Source: a bacterium
GTDB taxonomy: Bacteria > UBP14 > UBA6098
Direction: 5' to 3'
Length of the DNA stretch: 35,685 nt
Assembly: GCA_003645085.1 (NCBI GenBank)
Contig: QNEE01000003.1
Coordinates: forward strand, 1-35,685
Both the position numbers and the translations under genes were made by a program. Positions 14,923 to 33,581 of this stretch are shown here, one piece after another. Position 1 is the first letter of the stretch. Each line of letters starts with the position of its first letter. The notes under the pieces were generated by a model. That model was not told the origin of the DNA. It ran no database searches and worked only from the letters and a program-made list of their open reading frames with translations.

Positions 14923-15043
14923 TCTCTCACGTCGCTGGCGCGAGGGTGGTCTTCGGGATATTTGTGGGGAATCCGTGCTTCCGATATATAGTTTCAATAG
15001 ACCTTGTGAGGAACTCGCACGGAGCGTGCCAGCGACCGAGAGA
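14923..15043. repeat. Structured 100-bp intergenic element with pairing flanks, copy 1
   Basis: The core is 14934-15033 and is a near-identical inverted copy of 33468-33567 (4 differences seen over 100 bp). It starts GCTGGC and ends GCCAGC. The full stem reads TCTCTC - AC - GTCGCTGGCGCGAG on the left, pairing with CTCGC - ACGGAGCGT - GCCAGCGAC - C - GAGAGA on the right. The bulged ACGGAGCGT can form its own small hairpin. The rest of this ~400-nt gap holds the lolD promoter and no gene; the 86-aa ORF at 14866-15126 (-) runs through the repeat. Confidence 0.75.
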
Positions 15044-33450: not shown

Positions 33451-33581
33451 TCTCCTGCGTAAAACGGGCTGGCACGCTCCGTGCGAGTTCCTCATAATGT
33501 ATATTGAAACTATATATCGGAAGCACGGATTCCCCACAAATATCCCAAAGACCACCCTCGCGCCAGCCCTTTATGTGGAGA
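33451..33581. repeat. Structured 100-bp intergenic element with pairing flanks, copy 2
   Basis: The core is 33468-33567, inverted relative to copy 1 at 14934-15033. The outer stem is TCTCC - TG - CGTAAA - AC - GGGCTGGC pairing with GCCAGCCC - TTTATG - T - GGAGA (one G-T pair). Inside, GCGAG pairs with CTCGC after the bulged ACGCTCCGT. It lies in the 444-nt gap between the divergent OmpA and DUF192 genes, which otherwise holds a small hairpin (33597) and a promoter (33725). Confidence 0.75.

Follow-up and report, generated by a model that had tools for sequence, protein, structure and literature searches.

The window, by which we mean the whole stretch of 35,685 nucleotides analysed here, is contig 3 of a bacterial genome of 2.67 Mb in 268 contigs (G000) and carries two copies of a palindromic element, each with a core of 100 nt. 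Copy A lies on the forward strand (33468..33567), is bounded by the invariant ends GCTGGCACG and TCGCGCCAGC and is matched by a covariance model of the family at 33464-33570 (E = 1.4e-23). Copy B lies on the reverse strand (14934..15033; model match at 14931-15037), and its core is 96% identical to that of copy A. Within copy A, inner helix 1 is formed by TCCGTGC (33478..33484) and GCACGGA (33523..33529), and inner helix 2 by TTCC (33488..33491) and GGAA (33519..33522), the 5' arms of the two helices being separated by the 3-nt bulge GAG (33485-33487). Both helices covary, reading ATTTTTGC/GCAAAAAT at helix 1 and GTCC/GGAC, GCCC/GGGC or GTTC/GAAC at helix 2 in other copies. An unpaired, C-rich and purine-poor arm, which varies in sequence and length in the alignments, occupies positions 33530..33559.

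Directly outside the core, copy A is closed by a locus-specific GG dinucleotide (33466..33467), which pairs with CC (33568..33569), and both positions covary across the family. Copy B is closed by TC (15034..15035) paired with GA (14932..14933), both on the reverse strand. Pairing continues outward at these two loci, in copy A from GG/CC to CGTAAA/TTTATG (33458-33463 / 33570-33575, with one G.T) and finally TCTCC/GGAGA (33451-33455 / 33577-33581), in copy B from GTC/GAC to TCTCTC/GAGAGA. These stem pairings, as listed in a preliminary description of the locus, are present in the sequence of both copies exactly as given; the extended arms of copy A (33451..33463 and 33570..33581, forward strand) are not a feature of the family.

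A DNA search recovered 40 copies in G000, and a covariance model built from 38 of these found at least 94 copies in that genome at E <= 0.001, as well as members in four genomes of the same taxonomic family. With a broader model, these relatives (G001-G004) yielded 16, 17, 50 and 8 copies, respectively, and 16 genomes of other families yielded none, so that among the genomes searched the element is confined to one family. Confident model matches among six genomic contigs picked up by pattern scans were limited to two records of a Zixiibacteriota relative, and six viral contigs from the same kind of scan had none. One of the element-bearing genomes, G004, is recorded as Candidatus Zixiibacteriota bacterium SpSt-1142, which the NCBI taxonomy places in a phylum of the FCB group. 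The element has no Rfam match above the gathering score.

Throughout the family the core ends, GCTGKCACG on the left and CGCGCCAGC on the right, are near-invariant, and the anatomy proceeds inward from helix 1 over the 3-nt bulge to helix 2 and an AT-rich loop, followed by the unpaired C-rich arm. The smallest variant is a minimal hairpin of 38 nt (L055:1626-1670), and the largest, in which the apical loop is enlarged, reach about 160 nt. With genes called approximately, by a simple codon-usage score, 2 of 65 and 3 of 70 elements overlap a strong open reading frame (5 of 135 overall), and the element is thus almost wholly intergenic; by the same calls the median distance is 92 nt from the 3' ends of neighbouring genes vs 147 nt from their starts, and orientation relative to the neighbours is unbiased in G000 (++ 13, -- 13). 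Most copies are single, a few close inverted pairs (L059, L117, L056) occur, and the close inverted or tandem pairs are reminiscent of BIMEs.

Several subsets of copies carry additional sequence. In about ten G000 copies, including the one adjacent to the Y1 gene described below, the element is directly followed on its 3' side by another common module, CGATAGTATCGGAACCGACTTGCTCAACGGCTTCGCCGATTCGCTTCTT-like and about 48 nt long (L034, L037, L024, L032, L078, L082, L085, L087, L099, L101). An inserted palindrome resembling GTCGGCGCGTGCCGAC is found within the unpaired arm or the apical loop of L109, L113, L133 and L010:17-123 in G000 and of L048:1612-1701 in G001. The variants L085, L090, L093, L100, L103 and L038 of G000, each about 160 nt long, have in common an enlarged apical loop with conserved segments of its own (GGCGAAGCCGTTGAGC-like). 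In G002 the element is part of a larger repeat, whose left arm (about 100 nt) is conserved and whose right arm varies, in some cases at contig ends (L052, L057, L060, L063, L066, L069, L072, L122-L127). Finally, L160, L182, L184, L188 and L193-L195 of G003 and L163 of G004 have hybrid 3' ends with a right end resembling CTGTCACGAAATTTGC, as if a second element had been joined head to tail.

The flanks were assessed by comparing the own flanks of each copy with flanks swapped between copies, in about 130 copies overall. Immediately outside the core, positions 1 and 2 form Watson-Crick pairs in 92-96% and 66-81% of copies, against an expectation of 38-64% and 32-36%; the corresponding values are 92% and 67% for 75 copies from G000 (expected 60% and 35%), and 93% and 81% for the copies of three relatives (expected 46% and 32%). 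Further out, pairing is at background, save that one set slightly exceeds it at position 4 and the other at position 3, and with the two closing pairs masked the G000 copies fold at -27.99 kcal/mol with their own flanks vs -27.30 kcal/mol with swapped flanks (sd 3.9). The preliminary description had taken long, paired flanks as a feature of the hairpin. The flanks of other copies are unpaired beyond 2 bp, an outcome which that description had itself named as refuting, and on both the swapped-flank and the folding comparison extended pairing is to be rejected as a property of the family. Since the two window copies rank first and sixth of 75 in longer flank pairing, that description generalized from outliers, and the long arms at these two loci probably reflect local chance.

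The two closing pairs themselves do not follow the ancestry of the core. Among 16 pairs of G000 copies with a core identity of at least 0.88, closing pair 1 is common to 44% and closing pair 2 to 12%, compared to a background of 55% and 20%, and the window copies, nearly identical in the core, have different dinucleotides. Moreover, three congeners have an element at the same orthologous site (L046, L047, L180), and one of the three copies retains both closing pairs. The two closing pairs thus covary but belong to each locus and not to the core lineage, and they do not represent a simple case of an inherited stem evolving by compensatory change.

One account of this pattern is insertion into palindromes that are G+C-rich and short (4 nt or more), or now and then long, as at the window copies. 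Their independence of core ancestry, the differing dinucleotides of the two window copies and the lack of a target duplication (the longest direct repeat at the ends measures 2.32 nt with own vs 2.13 nt with swapped flanks, not above chance) all agree with this account, but pairing does not extend past two bases. The lone empty orthologous site found also bears on the question. Element L065 of G003 lies between two genes, and in the congener G004 the same gene pair is separated by about 14 nt without an element. The empty site (CCTTTC/TTACTTG) is not palindromic and a palindromic target thus fails to explain the closing pairs there, though the site has diverged and the closing pairs of the copy are weak. 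A copy also appears to occupy this gap in G000, so that gain or loss of elements may have happened there on more than one occasion. Target-site palindromes are a possible, if rather doubtful, source of the closing pairs; they concern these pairs only and are compatible with the REP-like reading set out below.

The inner hairpin presents a different picture. In 67 diverse copies, double changes occur at 15 of the 20 consensus pairs (203 cells vs 61 in shuffled alignments), none of 500 shuffles reaches the observed value of any covariation measure, and standard pairs make up 94.6% of the pair cells, dropping to 32-48% in slid-structure controls. Because the 67-copy alignment was fitted to the model, its percentages lean in the model's favour; double changes of this kind also occur in an unfitted MAFFT alignment. 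These alignments support maintenance of the hairpin and joint change at its paired positions. The earlier proposal of selection on a hairpin with compensatory changes hence stands for the inner helices, but the long flanks, on which it had been based, provide no evidence for it. A bulged ACGCTCCGT mini-hairpin forming a three-way junction, as also suggested there, is not borne out: the consensus pairs TCCGTGC with GCACGGA, with covariation, and sister copies reading CACGATTTTTGC are unable to form the ACG/CGT stem.

Strong helix covariation is also what a structured RNA family, be it a regulatory or a 3'-UTR element under selection for its transcript fold, would produce, and the shift of the elements towards the 3' ends of their neighbours fits such a role. 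Under selection on the RNA of one strand, however, G.T cells should outnumber A.C cells, and in the inner helices both are equally rare (0/0 of 418, 3/6 of 495 and 8/8 of 690), so that neither strand looks favoured as RNA and the evidence leans towards a hairpin kept as DNA. The outer stem has a conserved A.C mismatch in 126 of 139 copies, which corresponds to a G.T wobble on the opposite strand, and in four copies tested the strand with the G.T version folds slightly better. The unbiased orientation relative to neighbouring genes, the lack of an Rfam match and the presence or absence of the element at an orthologous site likewise speak against an RNA family, which we regard as unlikely.

Covariation without wobble intermediates is the trace expected of template switching during replication (PMC8794818), a mutational process that keeps the arms of an inverted repeat complementary without selection for function. 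Locus-specific closing pairs would also arise by this route. On the other hand, the invariant ends, the conserved A.C mismatch and the 3-nt bulge have not been "corrected" to complementarity, and in each lineage correction would need to end precisely at the second pair beyond the core, making palindrome-maintaining mutation a decidedly improbable explanation.

Few transposases occur in this lineage, and the enzyme acting on the element can thus be narrowed to one main candidate. All five family genomes (G000-G004; L140-L144, L147) encode a 133-residue protein with a Y1 transposase domain, in which the HUH histidines 53 and 55 and Tyr112 are invariant. The gene neighbours are partly conserved and comprise a metal-dependent hydrolase, a TPR protein and a histidine ammonia-lyase-like gene; the same Y1 gene is found on two contigs of G002, and G000 has a second, partial Y1 match within a long, unrelated reading frame. 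An AF2 model of the protein (pLDDT 87.7) finds its best matches among the TnpA structures of IS200/IS605, with E as low as 3.6e-8, TnpA_REP 4er8 being a weaker match (1.7e-5), and its NCBIfam scores lie below the cut-offs for both REP_Tyr_transpos (22 bits; cut-off 80) and IS200 (36.6 bits; cut-off 55). A short Y1 protein with intact HUH motif and tyrosine is apparently inherited vertically across at least two families of the class, including genomes G007 and G011 (L136, L138), and occurs even where searches detected no element.

The physical association of gene and element is loose. In G000 an element begins about 50 nt past the Y1 stop codon, on one side only, in G002 the nearest one lies past the next gene at a distance of about 0.8 kb, and in G001, G003 and G004 no element lies within about 1.5 kb. 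Direct adjacency is therefore found in one of five genomes, for which we estimate a chance probability of roughly 4-8%. The same Y1 subfamily occurs in genomes of family f4 without a detectable element, and no obvious repeat family emerged among hairpins near the Y1 genes of other families. Other recombinases are patchy: of the four families searched in the five genomes, RVT_1 is present in one, DDE_Tnp_1 in two, rve in three and IS110 in none. These counts dispose of retro-mobilization by a reverse transcriptase and of IS110/bridge-RNA mobilization, and leave the IS200-type Y1 HUH nuclease as the likeliest candidate enzyme. Ordinary MITEs of a DDE transposase would explain the size of the element, its terminal inverted repeats and its dispersal between genes, but they are very unlikely, given a target-site duplication not above chance, DDE and rve genes that are fragmentary or absent in at least two of the five genomes, and internal covarying helices that would be superfluous for such elements. 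The copies are dispersed and lack the end motifs that we take to characterize attC-type integron sites, which were likewise set aside.

Among known systems, the RAYT-mobilized REPs, BIMEs and REPINs are similarly high-copy, dispersed, extragenic imperfect palindromes with a bulge and a mismatch, some in close inverted pairs, lineage-restricted and accompanied by a Y1 HUH gene in the genome; compensatory changes have been reported for REPINs as well (PMC3116915). In contrast to the 20-40 nt of a REP, the element measures about 100 nt, and it consists of a single hairpin, whose C-rich arm is long and unpaired, rather than two inverted REPs. The base of the hairpin has no GT[AG]G foot, the conserved ends standing in its place; the GTAG and CGTC types of REP (PMC3733652) are excluded by the lack of such a foot. 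The Y1 protein resembles IS200 TnpA more than it does RAYTs, and an element directly flanks its gene in one of the five genomes. TnpA_Y1 proteins of class 3 / subclass 2.6, described with "atypical secondary structures" (PMC6006769), are alike in their IS200-like Y motif and high-copy non-GTAG hairpins, and the Y...Q motif of the present protein resembles that of class 1/3 TnpA_Y1, a likeness by motif and description; yet the CnGA foot and gene flanking reported for class 3 / subclass 2.6 (PMC6006769) are not found here. The subterminal hairpins of IS200/IS605 and the MITEs derived from them have in common with our element the Y1 transposase fold, imperfect hairpins and no target duplication, but no autonomous IS copy was seen, and up to at least 94 elements are accompanied by one short, vertically inherited Y1 gene. 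ERIC/RU-1 and NEMIS-type bacterial MITEs are palindromic, intergenic and about 100-130 bp long. They carry TA or other target duplications, unlike the element described here.

Taken together, the element is REP-like in behaviour and anatomy, and we favour, with a probability of about 55%, a REP-like family of non-autonomous, dispersed hairpin elements that act as DNA, with the Y1 protein as the likeliest enzyme. This reading draws on copy number and dispersal, helix covariation without an excess of G.T, intergenic placement, the filled and empty orthologous site, BIME-like pairs, the 38-nt minimal version, and a Y1 gene in all five genomes where other recombinases are patchy. We count against the Y1 link that direct flanking is seen in a single genome and that the subfamily occurs in element-free f4 genomes, and further weigh the missing GT[AG]G foot and the non-palindromic empty site. 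Because of its missing foot, its enzyme class and the scarce gene flanking, the family is not classed as a member of the REP/RAYT system.

Under the REP-like reading, the single-stranded state of replicating DNA would let the element extrude as an imperfect hairpin, which an HUH tyrosine nuclease may recognize and copy to, or remove from, intergenic sites; by analogy to TnpA_REP (RAYT), which is thought to spread REPs, this would most likely be the vertically inherited IS200-type Y1 protein. A bolder version, in which a domesticated IS200-type Y1 nuclease rather than a RAYT maintains a new class of REP-like DNA hairpins of about 100 nt, and each insertion determines the closing pairs afresh through complementarity to the target, amounts to a pairing-guided insertion rule and is speculative, its odds being low.

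Compensatory-looking flanks in two copies are no proof of selection, and assessing them requires the whole family and swapped-flank controls. With this element, a REP-like repeat family in which covariation is clear becomes known from an uncultured lineage of the FCB group, a same-family relative of which is labelled Candidatus Zixiibacteriota. Its locus-specific closing pairs give a clue, open to testing, to site choice by REP-like elements, a process that is still poorly understood.
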